64,000 bases of DNA from Prochlorococcus marinus str. MIT 0919 (GTDB taxonomy: Bacteria; Cyanobacteriota; Cyanobacteriia; PCC-6307; Cyanobiaceae): positions 868,001 through 932,000 of the forward strand of contig NZ_CP114779.1 of assembly GCF_027359375.1 (NCBI RefSeq). Reading direction: 5' to 3'. This document shows, piece after piece, positions 674 through 9,645 of this stretch. The stretch's first letter is position 1, and every line of letters begins with the position of its first letter. The translations under genes and the position numbers were made by a program. The notes below the pieces were generated by a model. It made no database searches and was not told where the DNA came from. It was given only the letters and a program-made list of their open reading frames with translations.

Positions 674-3600
674 CTACCATTTAATTGGTCTCCAGTCTCC
701 ACTTAATTGAAACGCTGCCCAAACATAAGGATGCCTATAACCAGGAATGGAGTGATTTCTAAATTCTTTTTGAGTTGCCGCCAAAGCATCTGCTCGTCCC
801 TCTCCTGCTTTGAGCTTTTGATAAAACTTTTTCATAAAGGATGCTGTTGCTCGATCATCTACTTTCCATAGAGACAACAAACTAGACCTTGCACCTGCTA
901 CAGCAATGGCACGTTTGAGACCATAAACACCTTCTCCAGATTGGATATCACCTTGACCTGATTCACATCCTGAGATGACTACTAATTCAGTCCCTTGCCA
1001 ATCAAGCTTGGTAACTTCTAACGCTGTTAAATACCCATCGTCTTTAGGGTTGGCTTCTGGTTCATTGGCACCAGCTAAAACAACGCCACTTCTTAGTAAT
1101 GGATTTTCATTTTCCGGAATTCTTCTAACTTCACTAGCGCCCAATAAAACAGATGCGATTTCATTTTCTCCTTTTTCTTGATCAGCTCGGAAATAAGCAT
1201 GACTAGCAATATGTAAGATCTTGGGTGCTTGTTGTTGTTCTTGTACTGCTAAAGCTGTTGCTTTGTTCTTGGTTAATAGTTGAGCCTTGGTGAGCTTGGC
1301 AATTGTTTTGCCTTCTTTAGCAGTTCCAGGCAATGGAGACCAAATTAAAGAACCTAAATCACCAGAGCGTTGTTGAGATGGACCACTAGCAATCAGCTCA
1401 GACTCTTGTTTACGTGGAAAGTCTTTACTTAAATTGAATGCTGGATTAGCCACAACCAGTGGTTTTTGTTTTGTTGGTTTTGAGGCTTTCGCTAGATCTA
1501 GTAGTTCACGGCCAGTCGTGAGTAGACGTATATCAATAGCCTCGCCGAGGAGTTGATCATTTTTATGAGAACTCAGTGCAGCAAAAGGAATACGGTTGAG
1601 TTCTGCATCAGGTGAAAGAAATAACGTCTCTGCATCGCCCATCGCTTTGGTCAAAGGTTTGACAACTAAAGCACCAACTTCGTTCCATAACTCTTGTGCA
1701 TCTGCTAGACCTTGTTCTGATCCAACCAAAGCTTGTTGAATTTTTTGTTCTATTGGAGTAGCCAGGCCTAAATCAACACTTTCAATCTCTCCATTTGGTT
1801 TAAGAAGAAATGCCTGATAACGTGCCTCGCCCCAATTCTTAACCTCTATGGCGTCATCATGATTATCAAATTTAAAAGGTCTAAACTTTTGATATTCAAT
1901 TAACACTGAATTAGAAGGCATTACCTTTGCAACCTCTGATGTTTCTATGATTCGCGCTTTCATTTCTGGCAATAAGTTATAAAGCTTGAGTTCAATCCTC
2001 TCTTTTTCATTGTTAAGTTCCTTGATCATCTGAGCATCCTTCACCCTTTTAGAAGCAAGTATATTTGTTACCCTTTTTATTCTTTCTGCAAGTGGGAGAT
2101 GTGGTCCATCTAAAGAAGCGAACCGACTTTGTCTTCTTTCTATTTCTTCAAGTAATCCATGCCTATTAATCCGTGCAAAAAATGCCAAGTCCTTTCCATT
2201 TGGATGAATATTCGAGGCTGAAAAAATAGCCGCATAAGATATTCCTAAAGTATCTACAAAACTATTCCTTTTCGACAATGGAATATATGGCGCTTGTTCT
2301 TGTATTTGGATAAATTGCATTCTTAAACTTCTACGTAAATAATGATCAGCTTGCTCATAATCTTTATTATTAAAATGAGCCATTGCAAGATTTATTATTG
2401 GTTGAATCAAGATTGAGGCTGATTTTCCGTATAATTTTTCATAACGCTTAACTGACTCTCTAAGCAGTGGGAGTGCTTTTTCGTTCTTACCTTGCCACCA
2501 ATATGCTGAACCCAAGCCTCCAATCAAATATGGATCAGTATTTTGAGCCCCAGATTGATTTTTTTGTCTATTATATAGACGTTTTAGTATTTTCTCTGCC
2601 TTAAGAAAATCATTCTGCTTAAAAGCAATAGATGCCAATGAAATTTGACCATTTAAGGTCATGGGCTTGATAAGTTCCTTTGCCTTTTTAAATTCTTTTA
2701 AATCTATATATGTATTAATTAATAGGTTTATGGCGTTTGCATAATAGTAATCATTATCTTTTTTTATTGCAGACAAAATTCTTATTGATTCCTGAAGTCC
2801 TTCAACTGCTTTCAAGTCATTCCCATAAAATAAATTCAATCTAGCCTGACTATAAAGAATAATCGCTGCAGCATATGTATGCTTTTTTTCATTGTAATTT
2901 GCTTGAAGCTTTAATTGATTTATTAAATTTGGTATTTCTACATAATTATCATTATAAAAGTATAAATATAGAATAGCTCCTGTCGTATGTACTATTTCGT
3001 CTGAATTACCTATTTCCAGAACTTTTTTATAATCAATAATAGCTCCATCAAAATCTCCCAATGCTTGCTTACAATAGGCTCGATTCTGAAAAGAATTGGT
3101 GAATGTGGGGTCAATCAAAATAGCATTAGATTGATCCTCAATGCAACCTACGAAGTCTTCTAAACTTATTTTTGAATGTCCACGATTGTTGTAGAGGAAA
3201 GGATTATTTGGATTTAATTCAATCGCTTTAGAAAAATCATCTATTGCTCCTTCAAAATCTTCGATAATATTCTTTGTATGCCCACGATTCCAGTATGAGT
3301 TAGGATCATTTGGATTTAATTTAATCGCTTTAGAATAGTCTTCTATTGCTCCTTTAAAGTTTCCTAAAATACCTTTTTCATGTCCTCTAAATTGATACAA
3401 TTGATCTTCATTAGGGTCCAAATCGATTGCTTTAGAGTAATCACTTATTGCCCCTTGATGATCTCCTAGGCTTGCTTTATTACTTGCACGACTAGAATAG
3501 TAAGAAGTTTCTTCAGGTTTTAATTCAATCGCTTCAGAATAGTCTTCTATTGCTCCTTGATGATCTCCTAGTTGCTGCTTGTTGTATCCACGAACTGAGT

Positions 3601-4369
3601 AGTAATAAGCTTCTTTAGGTTTTAATTTAATAGCTTTAGAGTAATCCTCTATTGATCCATGGTGATATCCCAAACTCAACTTGCTATAGCCACGAGCTGA
3701 ATAATAATTAGCTTCTTCAGGTTTTAATTCAATCGCTTTCGAATAGTCGTCTATAGCATCTTTATCATCCTTTAGCTCTGCCTTGTTCGTTCCTCGAGCA
3801 TAATAAGAATAAGATTGATTTGGGTTAATTTCAATTGCTTTAGAATGATCATCAATAGCACCTTGATGATCATTTAGAAGTGATTTGATATATCCACGAT
3901 TATTGTAGGGTGCATAATTTTTGGGATTTATTTCTATAGCTTTTGAGTAATCATCTATTGCACCTTTCGAGTCTCCAAGTTTTTGCCTAGTTTTTCCACG
4001 ATTAAAGAAACTCCAATAGAAAGAATCAGCATTAAGTTCAATTGACTTAGTGTAATCAGCTAAAGCGCCTAAAAAGTTTTTCTGATCAAACTTGATGATT
4101 GCACGGTTATGATATGCCTGCCAAACGCTAGGATCAAGCTCAATTGTTTTGTTGAAATTCTCTAGGGCGCCAGGATAATCCCCTGAATTTAATTGTTCTA
4201 GTCCTTGATGCAGGTAATAATCTGCACTTTCTTTCGGGCTTTCTGAAGAAATAAACACTTCAGGGATTACCTCTGCTACAAAGGCGCCATCCATTGCCAC
4301 TGGAACTAGCAAAGCTGCAATCAGTACTAAGCGACGCATACCGGAAAATGTCTTATTGAAGTGTGGCAT
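674..4369 (-). CDS. TPR-CHAT domain protein (caspase-like protease fold), predicted exported or membrane-anchored
   Basis: A 1231-residue protein. Residues 11-35 (MRRLVLIAALLVPVAMDGA...) are hydrophobic and look like a signal peptide or anchor. About 12 TPR units of the 34-residue type follow (core GAIDDYSKAIELNP) to about residue 450, then further helical repeats to about 690. The C-terminal third is a CHAT domain (caspase/HetF-associated with TPR). The candidate catalytic His is H1057 in IASHAYF and the Cys is C1135 in ISGCESG; the domain ends with WAAFQLSGDW. CHAT domains are clan CD-like cysteine peptidases, but the substrate here is unknown. The paralog at 5775-9065 starts at the equivalent of Met11, so the true start may be at 4339. 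Its CHAT half is about 90% identical to that paralog apart from a 20-residue insertion near residue 1070, while the TPR parts are of different families. Confidence 0.85.
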   Translation of the reverse strand: MPHFNKTFSGMRRLVLIAALLVPVAMDGAFVAEVIPEVFISSESPKESADYYLHQGLEQLNSGDYPGALENFNKTIELDPSVWQAYHNRAIIKFDQKNFLGALADYTKSIELNADSFYWSFFNRGKTRQKLGDSKGAIDDYSKAIEINPKNYAPYNNRGYIKSLLNDHQGAIDDHSKAIEINPNQSYSYYARGTNKAELKDDKDAIDDYSKAIELKPEEANYYSARGYSKLSLGYHHGSIEDYSKAIKLKPKEAYYYSVRGYNKQQLGDHQGAIEDYSEAIELKPEETSYYSSRASNKASLGDHQGAISDYSKAIDLDPNEDQLYQFRGHEKGILGNFKGAIEDYSKAIKLNPNDPNSYWNRGHTKNIIEDFEGAIDDFSKAIELNPNNPFLYNNRGHSKISLEDFVGCIEDQSNAILIDPTFTNSFQNRAYCKQALGDFDGAIIDYKKVLEIGNSDEIVHTTGAILYLYFYNDNYVEIPNLINQLKLQANYNEKKHTYAAAIILYSQARLNLFYGNDLKAVEGLQESIRILSAIKKDNDYYYANAINLLINTYIDLKEFKKAKELIKPMTLNGQISLASIAFKQNDFLKAEKILKRLYNRQKNQSGAQNTDPYLIGGLGSAYWWQGKNEKALPLLRESVKRYEKLYGKSASILIQPIINLAMAHFNNKDYEQADHYLRRSLRMQFIQIQEQAPYIPLSKRNSFVDTLGISYAAIFSASNIHPNGKDLAFFARINRHGLLEEIERRQSRFASLDGPHLPLAERIKRVTNILASKRVKDAQMIKELNNEKERIELKLYNLLPEMKARIIETSEVAKVMPSNSVLIEYQKFRPFKFDNHDDAIEVKNWGEARYQAFLLKPNGEIESVDLGLATPIEQKIQQALVGSEQGLADAQELWNEVGALVVKPLTKAMGDAETLFLSPDAELNRIPFAALSSHKNDQLLGEAIDIRLLTTGRELLDLAKASKPTKQKPLVVANPAFNLSKDFPRKQESELIASGPSQQRSGDLGSLIWSPLPGTAKEGKTIAKLTKAQLLTKNKATALAVQEQQQAPKILHIASHAYFRADQEKGENEIASVLLGASEVRRIPENENPLLRSGVVLAGANEPEANPKDDGYLTALEVTKLDWQGTELVVISGCESGQGDIQSGEGVYGLKRAIAVAGARSSLLSLWKVDDRATASFMKKFYQKLKAGEGRADALAATQKEFRNHSIPGYRHPYVWAAFQLSGDWRPIKW

Positions 4370-4434
4370 CGATACTTGGAATCAGTTCAAAAAACTGGAA
4401 CTACAAGAAGGTATTCAAATAAAAATTTGCATTT

Positions 4435-4671
4435 TTGATTTTGAAATTACTCAAATCATTTCTCTCTTCCAGTCTTTCAGTTGCTTGTCTAATAGGCCTA
4501 GCAACACCTTCTTATGCAGGTACTTGCATTGAAACTTCTCCTGGAATAACGAAGTGCTGGTCCAGCAACGGTGGCTCTTCTACTACTATTGAAACAAGTC
4601 CAGGTGTCTATAACTATTATGGGACCGATTCCAAAGGCAATTCAACTAGAGAAACATATATTCAGTGGTGA
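4435..4671 (+). CDS. Small secreted peptide of unknown function with duplicated ETSPG motif
   Basis: A 78-residue frame starting at TTG (4435; a second TTG lies at 4441). Residues 1-28 are a good signal peptide: basic start, hydrophobic SLSVACLIGLA, and an SYA cleavage site. The mature part is about 50 residues, rich in Ser, Thr and Gly, with two Cys. It contains an internal repeat, IETSPGITKCW and IETSPGVYNYY. I do not recognise the family. It is transcribed divergently from the minus-strand TPR-CHAT gene, with only 65 bases between them. Its last codons and stop run into a duplicated copy of the 3' end of the other TPR-CHAT gene. The non-ATG start and short length make it less certain than its neighbours, but the clean signal peptide argues that it is real. 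Confidence 0.6.
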   Translation: MILKLLKSFLSSSLSVACLIGLATPSYAGTCIETSPGITKCWSSNGGSSTTIETSPGVYNYYGTDSKGNSTRETYIQW

Positions 4672-4840
4672 TTAGAGACCAATTAAGTGGTGATTGTGGA
4701 ATCACCTTTCCTCTTCCAATACTGATTAGATAGATTAAAGAAAAGAGATGGAAGAATGAGGTTTCATTCCAACTCCATTCCAACCATCGAGTATCGCTAA
4801 GATTACAGACTATGACTGAACCTAACTACTGGCTAATGAA
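4661..4840 (+). repeat. Duplicated segment: tail of TPR-CHAT gene, spacer, and 5' end of EVE gene
   Basis: Bases 4661-4840 align without gaps to 9033-9212 (constant offset 4372). From 4679 to 4840 I count about four mismatches in 162 bases. The segment carries the sequence encoding the last residues of the CHAT protein (RPIKW plus stop), the whole intergenic spacer and the first nine codons of the EVE gene. Homology stops abruptly after the ninth EVE codon. This is a dead copy left by a duplication or recombination event. Confidence 0.9.
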
Positions 4841-4853
4841 CAAATGCATTTGA
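4812..4853 (+). pseudogene. 5' fragment of EVE-domain gene (first remnant)
   Basis: The ATG at 4812 begins MTEPNYWLM, matching the start of the intact EVE protein at 9184 (MTEPSYWLM). The frame then diverges and ends at a TGA after 13 codons. The match includes the upstream spacer, so this is a duplicated gene start and not a chance resemblance. Confidence 0.8.
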
Positions 4854-4889
4854 GTGAGGGAAAACGATTGCAAGGAATTTGCAAAATCC

Positions 4890-4910
4890 ATTCACACACT
4901 ATTCACACAT
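4890..4910. repeat. ATTCACACA direct repeat pair (copy 1)
   Basis: Two ATTCACACA units sit 11 bases apart just after the first EVE remnant. Related copies occur at 5547-5568 (two units, 11 bases apart) and 5670-5678 (one unit). Copies 1 and 3 each follow an EVE remnant and a CAAGG-containing stretch, so the motif belongs to the duplicated debris. Function unknown. Confidence 0.6.
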
Positions 4911-4912
4911 TT

Positions 4913-5395
4913 TCAAAGGAAAGAAGGGTCTAAAAGTGATGGTCTATAAGAAAGTAAGAAAGGTCTTTGTTCACTCTTAACTGCAGTAATTACATCTTCT
5001 CCTGTGTGCCAAATCCATTGTTGTTGAGGCGATCTTCCGTCAACATCAACGCTTGTTCCAACAGGAGGACCAAAACGATGTCTTAAGCCCGCCAATACTT
5101 CCGTCATGTTTTCATAGTCCATTTCATAAGCAAGCTGTTTTAACCCATCCTTGTCTTCAACACGAACACGAAGACTATTCACAGGTAACCCGCTCATCTG
5201 AAAATCTCTAACTTCAAAAAGACCCCTATTTAAATCTTCTTGAACAGGAGTCAAGGAAACTCCAAGATGGCTCTCTACACTTGAGAGATCCATCCCCCAC
5301 GACAAACCTTCAACACAAGCCATCACAGATTTAGGCGTTAATTGAATAAACAAAAGCAGAACTGCTATAGCAACGTAACTAAAAACCTTCATCAT
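4913..5395 (-). CDS. Predicted secreted protein of unknown function
   Basis: A 160-residue protein with an N-terminal signal peptide (MMKVFSYVAIAVLLLFIQL, probable cleavage after VMA). The mature domain begins with GLSWGMDLSSVESHLGVSL. A W-G-M-x(5)-V-x(3)-L-G pattern of this kind is common in small periplasmic or envelope proteins, but I cannot name the family. It contains Trp, Arg and Pro-Pro (RFGPPVG) and no obvious catalytic motif. It lies between duplicated debris on both sides and is flanked by the two TPR-CHAT genes, on the same strand as the first one. With the 78-residue peptide and the metallopeptidase it makes this a cluster of exported proteins. Confidence 0.7.
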   Translation of the reverse strand: MMKVFSYVAIAVLLLFIQLTPKSVMACVEGLSWGMDLSSVESHLGVSLTPVQEDLNRGLFEVRDFQMSGLPVNSLRVRVEDKDGLKQLAYEMDYENMTEVLAGLRHRFGPPVGTSVDVDGRSPQQQWIWHTGEDVITAVKSEQRPFLLSYRPSLLDPSFL

Positions 5396-5546
5396 CTAAA
5401 TGCGATTGCGTCTTTCTCCAAAAGAAACTAGTCGGATTTAGAGGAGAAGCCTATGTTTTATGAGCTATCAAACTTAAAATGGTCAAAACCTCCTAATGGG
5501 GAAAAGCCCTCGCTAACTGATCTCTTTAAAAGCCAGTAGCGATCTC

Positions 5547-5568
5547 ATTCACACATTATTCACACACC
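5547..5568. repeat. ATTCACACA direct repeat pair (copy 2)
   Basis: Two ATTCACACA units 11 bases apart, as at 4890-4910, here placed before an EVE remnant. TTATTCACA inside it resembles the E. coli DnaA box, but the AT-rich background and the presence of only a few copies make that unsafe. Confidence 0.55.
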
Positions 5569-5591
5569 GCAATTCCTGTAGATCCCTTGAT

Positions 5592-5633
5592 ATGAATGAA
5601 CCTAACTACTGGCTAATGAAGTGTGAACCTTGA
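5592..5633 (+). pseudogene. 5' fragment of EVE-domain gene (second remnant)
   Basis: The ATG at 5592 begins MNEPNYWLMKCEP and then stops. It aligns with MTEPSYWLMKSEP of the intact EVE protein at 9184, so this copy reaches four codons further than the remnant at 4812. It is the third copy of this gene start within 4.4 kb. Confidence 0.75.
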
Positions 5634-5774
5634 TTAATAGCAAGGTATTAGAAGAAATCTCAAAAATCTATTCACACATTTTCTCTAACCCAAAATTGCA
5701 CTGATGCATTCAATAAAACGTCCAAGGCAAAAATCACTAAATTAAAGAAATAACTGCAAAGATCTCAATACCTG

Positions 5775-8700
5775 ATGCGCCCTTTTGCCCTAGCTCTAGC
5801 TTTGCTAATGCCAGTGGCAATCGATGGTGCATTATTAGCTGATGTTGTTCCTGAAGTACTGATTGCTGAGAAGAAAGAAGAGTTAGGTCTTGATGACCTT
5901 GATCGACTTACAAAAGAAGCTGAGGAAGCAGAAGAAGCTGGTAACTATCAAAAAGCCTTAGATATTTTGGAGAAGATTCTTGCCATAGAGAAAAAGGAGT
6001 TGGGGGTTGAACATGCAGATGTAGGTGGAACACTTACTTGGCAAGGGTGGATCTACCTTGAGCAAGGTAAATACGACAAGGCCAAGCCTCTTTTATTGCG
6101 AGGTTTAGAGATTACCGAAAAAACCCTCGGTCCAGAACATCCATATACAGCAACTACACTAATTAACTTGGCTTTGCTTTATAACAACCAAGGCCTGTAT
6201 AGCAAAGCAGAACCGCTTTATTTGAGAGCTTTAGCGATTGCTGAGAAAACCCTCGGTCCAGAACATCCAGATACAGCAAGGAGCCTCAATAACTTAGCTT
6301 CGCTTTATAAGAGTCAAGGTTTGTATAGCAAAGCAGAACCGCTTTATCTCCGAGCTTTAGCGATCTATGAAAAAGTACTCGGTCCAGAACATCCATATAC
6401 AGCAACGAGCCTCAATAACTTGGCTGCGCTTTATCAGGAGCAAGGCCTGTATAACAAAGCAGAACCGCTGTACCTAAGAGCTTTAGCGATTAGAGAGAAA
6501 ACCCTCGGTCCAGAACATCCATCTACAGCAAGGAGCCTCAATAACTTAGCTTCGCTTTATAAGAGTCAAGGTTTGTATAGCAAAGCAGAACCGCTTTTCT
6601 TGAGAGCTTTAGCGATCGATGAAAAAACCCTCGGCCCAGATCATCCAGATACAGCAAGGAGCCTCAGTAGCTTGGCTTTGCTTTATGAGAATCAAGGTTT
6701 GTATAGCAAAGCAGAACCGCTGTATTTGAGAGCTTTAGCGATCTATGAAAAAGTACTCGGTCCAGAACATCCATATACAACAACGAGCCTCAATAACTTG
6801 GCTTCTCTTTATGGCAACCAAGGTTTGTATAGCAAAGCAGAACCGCTTTTCTTGAGAGCTTTAGCGATCAAAGAAAAAGCACTCGGTCCAGAACATCCAG
6901 ATACAGCAACCAGCCTCAATAACTTGGCTTTGCTTTATAAGAGACAAGGCCTGTATAGCAAAGCAGAACCGCTGTACCTAAGAGCTTTAGCGATTAGAGA
7001 GAAAACCCTCGGTCCAGAACATCCATCTACAGCAAGGAGCCTCAATAACTTAGCTTCGCTTTATAAGAGTCAAGGTTTGTATAGCAAAGCAGAACCGCTT
7101 TTCTTGAGAGCTTTAGCGATCGATGAAAAAACCCTCGGCCCAGATCATCCATCTACAGCAACGAGCCTCAGTAACTTGGCGAATCTTTATGTGAGTCAAG
7201 GTCTATATAGCAAAGCAGAACCGCTTTTCTTGAGAGCTTTAGCGACTAGAGAGAAAACCCTCGGTCCAGAACATCCAGATACAGCAAGGAGCCTCAATAA
7301 CTTGGCTTCTCTTTATGGCAACCAAGGTTTGTATAGCAAAGCAGAACCGCTTTATTTGAGAGCTTTAGCGATCAAAGAAAAAGCACTCGGTCCAGAACAT
7401 CCAGATACAGCAACCAGCCTCAATAACTTGGCTGTGCTTTATGTGAGTCAAGGCCTGTATAACAAAGCAGAATCACTTCTTAAAAGGAGCCTAAAAGCAA
7501 GTCTCACATTGATTCAACGAGAAGCTCCTTATTTGATTCTTTCCGAACGACAAGCTTTTCTTGAGTCTAATCACAATCCCTTTAAACTCTCGCCTTCATT
7601 AGCTAAGAAGACAAAAGCTGGCTTAAAGCTGGCCTTATTCTCAAGGCTCAACCGACAAGGTTTATTAGAAGAACTCGAAAGACGTCAATCTCAATTAGCT
7701 AGTTTGCCAGGACCTCAACAAGCCATTGCTCAAGAATTACGGCTCGTCACACAACAACTTGCATCGAGGAATTTAAATGATGAGTTACGTCAAACTCTCA
7801 GCAAAAGGAAAGAGGATTTAGAACGCAAACTTTATCGTTTACTGCCAGAGCTAAAACCCCGTATTGTTGGAGTTAACCAGATCGCTAAAGCGATTCCTCG
7901 CAATAATTTGTTAGTCGAATATCAACGATATGAGCCATTTGATGGCACAAAACCTGATGGTGAGGAATGGGAAGAAGCTCGCTATCTAGGTTTAATCCTG
8001 AATCGTAAAGGGGAGATAGAAGCTATTGATTTAGGCCTTGCCGAACCTATAGAAGAAAAGACCCAACAAGCATTAACAGCTTCAGAACAAGCTTTAGCAA
8101 ATGCTCAGGAGTTATGGAAGGAAGTTGGAGAATTAGTTATCAAGCCTTTAGCAGAAGCAATCGGTGATGCTGAGACATTATTTATTTCTCCAGATGCAGA
8201 ACTCAACCGTGTTCCTTTTGCAGCACTCAGTTCTCATAAAGATGATCAATTACTCGCTGATGCTGTCAACATACGTCTACTAACAACTGGCCGTGAACTA
8301 CTAGATCTCGCTAAAGCATCAAAAGCAACAAAACAAAAACCACTGGTTGTGGCTAATCCGGCATTCAATTTAATTAAAGACTTTCCACGCAAACAAGAAT
8401 CTGAACTGATTGCTAATAGTTCATCCCAACAACGTTCCGGTGACCTTGGTTCGTTGACTTGGTCTCCATTGCCTGGAACTTCTAAAGAAGGAAAAGCCAT
8501 TGCCAAACTCACCAAAGCCCAACTATTAACTAAGAACAAAGCAACAGCTTTAGCCGTGCAAGAACAAGAAGCACCTAAGGTCTTACATATTGCTAGTCAT
8601 GCTTACTTCTTACCAGATCAAGAGAAAGGAGAAAACCCATTGCTAAGAAGCGGCATTGTTTTAGCTGGTGCAAACGAACCAGAATCGAACCCTGATGATG

Positions 8701-9065
8701 ATGGTTATCTCACTGCCTTAGAAGTCACCAAGCTTGATTGGCAAGGTACTGAATTAGCAGTGATCTCTGGTTGTGAATCAGGTAAAGGTGATATCCAATC
8801 TGGGGAAGGTGTTTATGGTCTTAAACGTGCAATCGCTGTAGCAGGTGCAAGATCAAGTCTTCTCTCGTTATGGAAAGTAGATGATCGAGCGACAGCATCC
8901 TTTATGAAAAAGTTCTATCAAAAACTCAAAGCAGGAGAAGGCAGAGCAGATGCTTTAGCTGCAACCCAACAAGAATTTAGGAATCACCCCATCCCTGGTT
9001 ATAGACATCCTTATGTCTGGGCAGCATTCCAGCTCAGTGGTGACTGGAGGCCAATTAAATGGTGA
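5775..9065 (+). CDS. Kinesin-light-chain-type TPR-CHAT domain protein, predicted exported or membrane-anchored
   Basis: A 1096-residue protein. Residues 1-25 (MRPFALALALLMPVAIDGALL) are hydrophobic and match residues 11-35 of the minus-strand paralog. From residue 56 there are twelve 42-residue TPR units of the kinesin-light-chain type (GLYSKAEPLYLRALAI, LGPEHP, SLNNLA), then a degenerate thirteenth. A helical linker runs to about 800. The CHAT domain follows, with candidate catalytic H942 (IASHAYF) and C1000 (ISGCESG), and the protein ends with WAAFQLSGDWRPIKW. The CHAT half is about 90% identical to the paralog at 674-4369. The near-identical repeats suggest recent expansion. The target is unknown. 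An EVE-domain gene starts 118 bases downstream on the same strand. Confidence 0.88.
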   Translation: MRPFALALALLMPVAIDGALLADVVPEVLIAEKKEELGLDDLDRLTKEAEEAEEAGNYQKALDILEKILAIEKKELGVEHADVGGTLTWQGWIYLEQGKYDKAKPLLLRGLEITEKTLGPEHPYTATTLINLALLYNNQGLYSKAEPLYLRALAIAEKTLGPEHPDTARSLNNLASLYKSQGLYSKAEPLYLRALAIYEKVLGPEHPYTATSLNNLAALYQEQGLYNKAEPLYLRALAIREKTLGPEHPSTARSLNNLASLYKSQGLYSKAEPLFLRALAIDEKTLGPDHPDTARSLSSLALLYENQGLYSKAEPLYLRALAIYEKVLGPEHPYTTTSLNNLASLYGNQGLYSKAEPLFLRALAIKEKALGPEHPDTATSLNNLALLYKRQGLYSKAEPLYLRALAIREKTLGPEHPSTARSLNNLASLYKSQGLYSKAEPLFLRALAIDEKTLGPDHPSTATSLSNLANLYVSQGLYSKAEPLFLRALATREKTLGPEHPDTARSLNNLASLYGNQGLYSKAEPLYLRALAIKEKALGPEHPDTATSLNNLAVLYVSQGLYNKAESLLKRSLKASLTLIQREAPYLILSERQAFLESNHNPFKLSPSLAKKTKAGLKLALFSRLNRQGLLEELERRQSQLASLPGPQQAIAQELRLVTQQLASRNLNDELRQTLSKRKEDLERKLYRLLPELKPRIVGVNQIAKAIPRNNLLVEYQRYEPFDGTKPDGEEWEEARYLGLILNRKGEIEAIDLGLAEPIEEKTQQALTASEQALANAQELWKEVGELVIKPLAEAIGDAETLFISPDAELNRVPFAALSSHKDDQLLADAVNIRLLTTGRELLDLAKASKATKQKPLVVANPAFNLIKDFPRKQESELIANSSSQQRSGDLGSLTWSPLPGTSKEGKAIAKLTKAQLLTKNKATALAVQEQEAPKVLHIASHAYFLPDQEKGENPLLRSGIVLAGANEPESNPDDDGYLTALEVTKLDWQGTELAVISGCESGKGDIQSGEGVYGLKRAIAVAGARSSLLSLWKVDDRATASFMKKFYQKLKAGEGRADALAATQQEFRNHPIPGYRHPYVWAAFQLSGDWRPIKW
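5940..7451 (+). repeat. Tandem 126-bp coding repeats (12 units, in frame)
   Basis: Twelve in-frame units of 126 bases encode the 42-residue TPRs of the gene above. Units 3-12 (from 6192) are nearly identical at the DNA level; units 1-2 are more diverged. Units 5-8 and 9-12 resemble each other in order (signatures REKT, DEKT, variable, KEKA), which points to block duplication of about 504 bases. Copy number is likely to vary by slippage or unequal recombination. Confidence 0.9.
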
Positions 9066-9183
9066 TTGTGGAATCACCTTTCCTCTTCTAATCCTGATTA
9101 GATAGATTAAAGAAAAGAGATGGAAGAATGAGGTTTCATTCCAACTCCATTCCAACCATCGAGTATCGCTAAGATTACAGACT

Positions 9184-9645
9184 ATGACTGAACCTAGCTA
9201 CTGGCTAATGAAAAGCGAGCCTGATGCTTACAGCATCCAAAACTTGAAAGAAGAACGCGAAACATTGTGGGATGGGATTAGGAACTACCAGGCAAGAAAC
9301 TTTATGAGAAAGATGAAAGCTGGAGATATTGCTTTCTTCTATCACTCAAACTGCAAGCCACCTGGGATTGTTGGGTTAATGGAAGTTACAAAAATAAAAT
9401 TAATTGACCCCACACAATTTGATAAAAGTTCAAAATACTTTGACCCAAAGTCTTCGCCTGAAAACCCTCGATGGGATTGCGTAAAGTTGAAATATTCTTG
9501 TACATTTAACGAAAAGTTAACACTTAAAGAAATTGGCGAAAGGTTTAGTTCAGAAGAAATACTTCTTGTTAGGAAAGGGAATAGATTGTCAATTATGCCA
9601 GTAGAGAAACAAATCGCTAAAAAGCTATTAAAATTATTGACTTGA
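9184..9645 (+). CDS. EVE domain protein (PUA-like fold)
   Basis: A 153-residue single-domain protein. It opens with YWLMKSEPDAYSI and continues with LWDGIRNYQARNFMRKMKAGD and FYHS; these are the hallmarks of the EVE family (thymocyte nuclear protein 1-like). The EVE fold is related to PUA and YTH domains and is thought to bind modified bases in nucleic acid. Length is normal for a stand-alone bacterial EVE protein. Most copies are of unknown role; some are fused to or encoded with defence enzymes. It follows the TPR-CHAT gene on the same strand and its 5' end has been copied twice into the upstream gaps (4812 and 5592). Whether it works with the CHAT proteins is open. Confidence 0.85.
   Translation: MTEPSYWLMKSEPDAYSIQNLKEERETLWDGIRNYQARNFMRKMKAGDIAFFYHSNCKPPGIVGLMEVTKIKLIDPTQFDKSSKYFDPKSSPENPRWDCVKLKYSCTFNEKLTLKEIGERFSSEEILLVRKGNRLSIMPVEKQIAKKLLKLLT

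Follow-up and report, generated by a model that had tools for sequence, protein, structure and literature searches.

TPR-CHAT genes of Prochlorococcus as probable cargo of a polar cassette array at the start of an EVE-domain gene

Chromosomal integrons and SCC-type tandem cassettes are polar arrays of small cassettes that are added at one gate. The means by which genes enter and leave the streamlined genomes of Prochlorococcus are an open question, and the known routes involve elements directed at tRNA genes. As summarised in PMC10872708, the tycheposons (Hackl et al. 2023) are cargo-carrying Prochlorococcus elements with a tyrosine recombinase, which lie at seven tRNA genes and remodel genomic islands. 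A divergent tyrosine integrase was also found in islands of Prochlorococcus and Synechococcus, near tRNA-Phe or tRNA-Cys, with the mechanism stated as not known (Flamholz et al., PMC10187409), and the additive island fGI-2 of the Methylophilaceae is marked by recurring 20-nt tRNA-Lys ends (PMC10872708). Our literature search found no report of an EVE-domain integration site in Prochlorococcus; the main tycheposon paper or its supplement may mention one.

The locus described here lies in a stretch of 64,000 nucleotides (G000:C1:868001-932000, hereafter the window) of a complete genome of 1,716,770 bases. It is like integrons and SCC-type cassettes in forming a polar array of small cassettes with one gate; however, it has no foldable attC and, in G000, no adjoining integrase, and its gate lies inside the 5' end of a conserved gene. 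The tycheposons, as far as that summary describes them, are likewise integrative cargo elements of Prochlorococcus with a tyrosine recombinase, whereas the present array sits at the 5' end of a protein gene and not at a tRNA gene, and its units, which go down to 0.8 kb and a single gene, form a long polar array; the recombinase families are here set side by side by description only. No tRNA gene was found in the window or in the regions L069, L070, L071 and L120. A divergent tyrosine integrase in picocyanobacterial islands is common to this locus and to the elements of Flamholz et al., with linkage to tRNA-Phe or tRNA-Cys there and to EVE here, and that integrase family may include the EVE-linked one as a branch. 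With fGI-2 our locus shares recurring direct repeats of a gene end that mark serial additions of variable cargo, but the repeated end is a tRNA 3' end in fGI-2 and a protein gene 5' end here, accompanied by arm pairs and a site-linked integrase. We consider it very probable that the locus is a polar array of site-specifically integrated cassettes, with its gate at the 5' end of the EVE gene and with TPR-CHAT genes as cargo. Its parts within the window are as follows.

674-4369 (-): TPR(34-aa)-CHAT gene 1 (g1), 1231 aa; signal-like N-terminus; CHAT His/Cys motifs HIASHAY and VISGCESG
4435-4671 (+): small secreted-type ORF, 78 aa; its end and stop fall within the CHAT-tail remnant
4662-4840 (+): remnant junction, made up of the final codons of a CHAT gene, a tail of 120 nt, a right-end sequence that contains arm pair CATTCCAAC x2, and the first 30 nt of EVE
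4811-4840 (+): copy of the EVE 5' end that forms the left end of cassette B; core TACTGGCTAATGAA at 4827
4827-5620 (+): cassette B, a single gene flanked on each side by arm pair ATTCACACA x2 and, outermost, by the core
4913-5395 (-): cargo gene of cassette B, a secreted-type 160-aa protein
5591-5620 (+): copy of the EVE 5' end; junction of cassettes B and C
5775-9065 (+): TPR(42-aa, KLC-type)-CHAT gene 2 (g2), 1096 aa; sole gene of cassette C (5607-9212)
9108-9183 (+): type 1 right-end sequence ahead of EVE, which includes arm pair CATTCCAAC x2 and occurs at 92-96% identity in many genomes
9184-9645 (+): intact EVE-domain gene (PF01878), whose first ~30 nt hold the putative integration core; proposed gate of the array

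The TPR-CHAT pair and the histories of its modules

The first-pass annotation had described g1 and g2 as a pair with related N-termini, a common CHAT half and different TPR arrays, together forming a large inverted repeat, and both reading frames lie exactly where it had placed them. The two architectures were recovered by Pfam and by sequence period, as TPRs recur every 102 nt (34 residues) in g1 and every 126 nt (42 residues, kinesin-light-chain-type) in g2. The inverted repeat consists of three arm pairs (676-1108/8631-9063, 87% identical; 1164-1239/8560-8635; 1232-1846/7956-8570), and the kinship of the N-termini was also borne out, both being signal-like, with 60 nt common to the 5' ends of the genes at 80% identity. 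A near-identical leader (ALALLMPVAIDGALLAEVVPEVL in G131) stands ahead of 34-residue TPRs in G131 and ahead of 42-residue TPRs in g2 and G035. Both proteins match PF12770 (E~1e-73; 247 and 250 bits, Pfam cut-off 24) and carry the motifs HIASHAY and ISGCESG; judged by curated score and His/Cys motifs, they would belong to the CHAT peptidase family and are predicted to be proteases. A PDB sequence search with the CHAT half gave no match at E 0.01, and PADLOC returned a generic TPR model only, with no defence family matched.

The CHAT halves had been put at about 90% identity, which holds for the last ~310 residues (~90% aa, ~87% nt when the coding regions are aligned as DNA) and fails for the ~200 residues that precede them, where identity is ~45% aa and third codon positions (~40%) are saturated, at background. 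The middles and the CHAT halves, whose equal divergence had been named as a sign against module exchange, are thus not equally diverged. Within CHAT, third-position identity between g1 and g2 is mostly 62-84%; set against the gene of the same architecture in G053, the values are 64-78% within the genome and 38-56% to G053 (first part of CHAT), so that the pair is closer within the genome than to G053. The high identity of the C-terminal stretch and the saturation just before it define a sharp boundary, and because third positions change across it from these values to near background, the boundary at g1 residue ~880-920 reads as a change of history, for which selection alone would be insufficient.

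Trees were built for three segments (pre-CHAT, CHAT-N and CHAT-C), with AU tests on protein and DNA, and they conflict. In the pre-CHAT tree a clade of g1 and g2 was rejected (AU p 1.1e-8 for protein, 1.1e-7 for DNA), and g1 clusters with other 34-residue-TPR proteins (G131, G210, G019 and G228). In the tree of CHAT-N (the first half of the domain) g1 has g2 as its sister (94/94), and a grouping of g1 with the 34-TPR genes of G131 and G210 was rejected (p 6e-5). The CHAT-C tree gave no resolution because this segment is very alike across all genomes. These comparisons support real module exchange, in which the CHAT and TPR/pre-CHAT modules would differ in history. The module exchange proposed in the annotation is thereby upheld, but its confinement to the pair is not: over the last ~140 residues g2 and its G131 counterpart are 86-96% identical (third positions 72-78%), and since this likeness between genera about equals that within the pair, exchange probably extends beyond the pair. 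An inversion of the intervening segment by recombination between the CHAT halves and a diversified target recognition, both also proposed in the annotation, are hypothetical.

A local inverted duplication of one TPR-CHAT gene, in which the TPR part diverged while gene conversion kept CHAT alike, would agree with the sister relationship of the CHAT-N halves and with a third-position identity that exceeds the between-genome value. We nevertheless regard such an origin as unlikely: the pre-CHAT part of g1 belongs with the 34-TPR proteins of other genomes (p 1e-7 against g1+g2), which indicates that neither gene began as a complete copy of the other, and the homology ends at the CHAT stop codon, with flanks that are not shared. 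We prefer to see g1 and g2 as cargo carried into an integration hotspot, at which related genes would arrive and recombine. Among the matches listed from a search of 400 family genomes, the g1/g2 arrangement is found in no other genome. A second CHAT pair, in AG-349-C08 (L067), has CHAT stretches ~70% identical over 584 nt, and recent homogenisation is not evident in it.

CHAT genes of this type often have companions. In G053, whose CHAT half is 70% identical, a core copy is followed by genes for a DnaB-like ATPase, hyp438, hyp404 and the TPR-CHAT protein; the site that heads this group (G053:C1:71447, L197:5447) is a secondary core-arm site far from EVE. The same two companion families accompany TPR-CHAT genes across picocyanobacteria: they lie near CHAT genes in L067, L157, L161, L162 and L163, and those of G000 (408 and 438 aa) are at L069:14372-16907 (genome 864372-866907), 1.8 kb from g1. 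The same region holds a 588-aa gene (L069:10537-12303) with a pilin-like start and dense 12/18-nt repeats that code for its low-complexity part. Hyp438 was found in eight of nine searched genomes that encode this type of CHAT protein, against none of three that do not, and relatives of the companions adjoin CHAT genes in two larger cyanobacteria. Neither family received a convincing Pfam, PHROG or NCBIfam name, and their predicted structures (mean pLDDT 67.5 and 69.6) had no PDB match at E 0.001. The closest described protein is Csx29 of Craspase, a TPR-CHAT protease (PMC10028731, PMC9729208), which likewise joins TPR repeats to a CHAT domain that has His/Cys motifs. Unlike Csx29, g1 and g2 have a signal-like N-terminus, their companions are two unnamed families, and no Cas7-11 partner is nearby, as the 29 kb around the pair hold no ORF of its size except the CHAT genes. 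Our guess is that the TPR-CHAT proteins and their companions form a regulated, exported caspase-like protease system, which might have a role in defence or stress.

Repeated EVE starts and the cassettes between them

Within the window, the first 30 nt of EVE (at 9184) are repeated at 4811 and at 5591, and there are further copies upstream of the window. The segment 4662-4840 is a direct repeat of 9034-9212 (96% identical); the annotation had listed neither this repeat nor the EVE-start copy at 5591-5620. The repeat unit measures ~150 nt and comprises a direct-repeat pair with an 11-bp period, the EVE start with core TACTGGCTAATGAA, and a second such pair; the first arm pair lies ~45-65 nt before the core and the second ~60-80 nt after it. 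Arm sequences differ between sites (CATTCCAAC, CCATCCACA, ATTCACACA, TATTCAAAC, TACCCAAAC and TACTCTAAC) while both halves agree within a site, as would be expected of arm-type integrase sites. No conserved secondary structure or consensus fold was predicted from an alignment of 26 repeat copies, and attC-like folding was therefore rejected.

The copies are strongly biased in strand and position. Across the whole G000 genome the core pattern has four matches, all at the EVE locus, and a profile search added ~12 further copies, spread across 35 kb of upstream sequence and without exception on the EVE (+) strand. When EVE-start copies were sought upstream of EVE at 49 loci, EVE-strand copies were present in most Prochlorococcus-like genomes and absent from Synechococcus-like genomes. 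A profile search of 12 whole genomes found copies in 11 and arrays in ten, and in these ten genomes 126 of the 136 copies (EVE start excluded) cluster on the EVE strand in the 104 kb that precede EVE, compared with ~3% expected. Copies also decay in a polar manner, their score dropping with distance from EVE (rho -0.49, p 5e-9; negative in 10/10 genomes). In the regions examined, successive junctions are a median of 2.4 kb apart (quartiles 1.2 and 4.6). The same-genus genomes found for G000 were G001 and G002. One core copy, at L131:11297, keeps ~140 nt of EVE and is a truncated EVE pseudogene inside the array, and in another genus a broken CHAT gene remnant (L166, G153:C8:81481-81756) lies ~10 kb upstream of EVE.

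Cassette B is found elsewhere at 97% identity (G005, G047 and G051), 92% (G042) and 85-90% (G013, G123 and G033), in each case outside the genus of G000; where comparable, the EVE genes of these genomes are 71-75% identical to the EVE gene of G000 over the aligned part. Matches that reach the cassette edges start at TACTGGCTAATGAA or no more than a few bases from it (L202 and L203; L205 slightly to the left) and end after TACTGGCTAATGAA (L200, L201, L203 and L205), and their flanks differ from genome to genome. Where both are on one contig, the copies lie ~0.1 to 52 kb upstream of EVE on the EVE strand. This sharing with exact edges is the strongest evidence that the cassettes are mobile units. 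The 160-aa cargo protein matched nothing in Pfam, PHROG or NCBIfam.

Elements carry direct core repeats at both ends. Arm pairs at the two ends of one element match in 9 of 21 cases (3.4 expected, p 0.001), while arms at one junction match in only 1 of 18. The best single case is a 9.4-kb element in G210, which reads core, TACTCTAAC x2, an integrase gene close behind, cargo, TACTCTAAC x2, and core with EVE. An ArsR gene directly precedes EVE in L073 and L074, and at least one cassette lies between the two in L071, L072, L130 and L131. Compared with L073, L130 has 12 kb inserted between ArsR and EVE, next to a 3.3-kb flank that is 98% identical; we rejected these loci as a clean empty-site pair since the likeness of the flanks breaks down over the ~75 nt next to the core, and regard them as an insertion polymorphism only. 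A block of pstS, an MFS gene, GAPDH and ArsR lies between two core copies in three regions (L071 12426-17602, L072 6977-12155 and L131 5049-10227; 94-98% identical between genomes) and may itself have moved as a cassette.

In G002, a tyrosine-recombinase-like gene (L070:4143-5654) matches a PHROG integrase (E 2e-16), with Pfam PF00589 below the cut-off. Its relatives of at least 59% identity, or their fragments, lie 0.4-27 kb upstream of EVE on the EVE strand in 13/13 genomes that have EVE and the integrase on one contig, whereas distant relatives (25-48% identity) are located elsewhere than EVE. Members of the EVE-linked clade retain the box-II Arg and the Tyr but carry Ser where box I usually has Arg (TGMSPEE). 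The recombinase gene is inside the element in G002, G210 and others, and some genomes hold fragments only. G000 has no gene of this subfamily, and its sole PF00589 gene (390 aa, a weak Phage_integrase match) is at 1.68 Mb, 0.8 Mb off; current mobility at its EVE locus is therefore no more than possible. Viral contigs yielded no relatives of the EVE-linked integrase or of the CHAT half, and no free or circular form of the element.

The similarity between upstream copies and the EVE copy has a right limit mostly +13 to +28 nt from the core start, and in nearly all cases 13-30 nt from it, whatever its leftward extent, and left limits that vary from -1 to -399. Together with the 100-400 nt that some junctions have in common with the EVE junction (G000 872827, L130 13247 and L121 10092), these variable left limits indicate that homologous recombination also shapes the array. 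Such long shared stretches, and the lack of an EVE-type integrase in G000, are what would be expected if the array had grown by RecA-mediated recombination, with circular or linear DNA carrying the EVE 5' end entering in Campbell fashion and no site-specific recombinase taking part. We think this improbable, however, as many junction pairs have only 20-60 nt in common, which is short for efficient RecA exchange, the right limit is nearly fixed at the core, arm pairs match within elements, and the integrase is linked to the site in all 13 genomes. An origin unrelated to integration, in which regulatory leaders or transposable repeats were copied out of the 5' region of EVE to places between genes, would suit copies that are intergenic and in many cases decayed, but is hardly credible in view of their single strand, clustering upstream of EVE and polar decay, the cassette edges at the core, the integrase linkage and the absence of conserved secondary structure.

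Proposed growth of the array and its meaning

Based on these results, we propose that small integrative cassettes accumulate here in a polar array and that g1 and g2 lie at the end where this array grows. Insertion would be site-specific, into the first codons of EVE, with the crossover within TACTGGCTAATGAA (codons YWLMK); the right end of the element would supply EVE with a fresh 5' end, consisting of upstream sequence, start codon and first codons, and the old 5' end would stay at the element's left end. Later insertions would again take place at the intact EVE start, so that older cassettes and their decaying core copies would be displaced upstream. The crossing would be performed by a tyrosine recombinase made by some elements, and cassettes that lack one, including those of the window, would rely on a recombinase supplied in trans. 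TPR-CHAT genes would be cargo both here and in other islands, often with two companions and a DnaB-like ATPase gene, and because such genes would arrive repeatedly, related CHAT genes could recombine to give a common CHAT domain on different TPR arrays.

A broader proposition, which we find about evenly balanced, is that Prochlorococcus has in this locus an integron-like gene-capture platform, with a single gate at the EVE start, site-matched recombinases that are partly supplied in trans, single-gene cassettes passed between genera, and an EVE promoter and N-terminus that are replaced at each insertion. The EVE core offers a concrete, testable recombination site, and the array would explain the co-occurrence of TPR-CHAT genes with a common catalytic domain and dissimilar TPRs. 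With cassette borders that can be read from the sequence and one-gene units shared between genera at 97% identity, an array whose gate is a single protein gene would constitute a record of gene flow.
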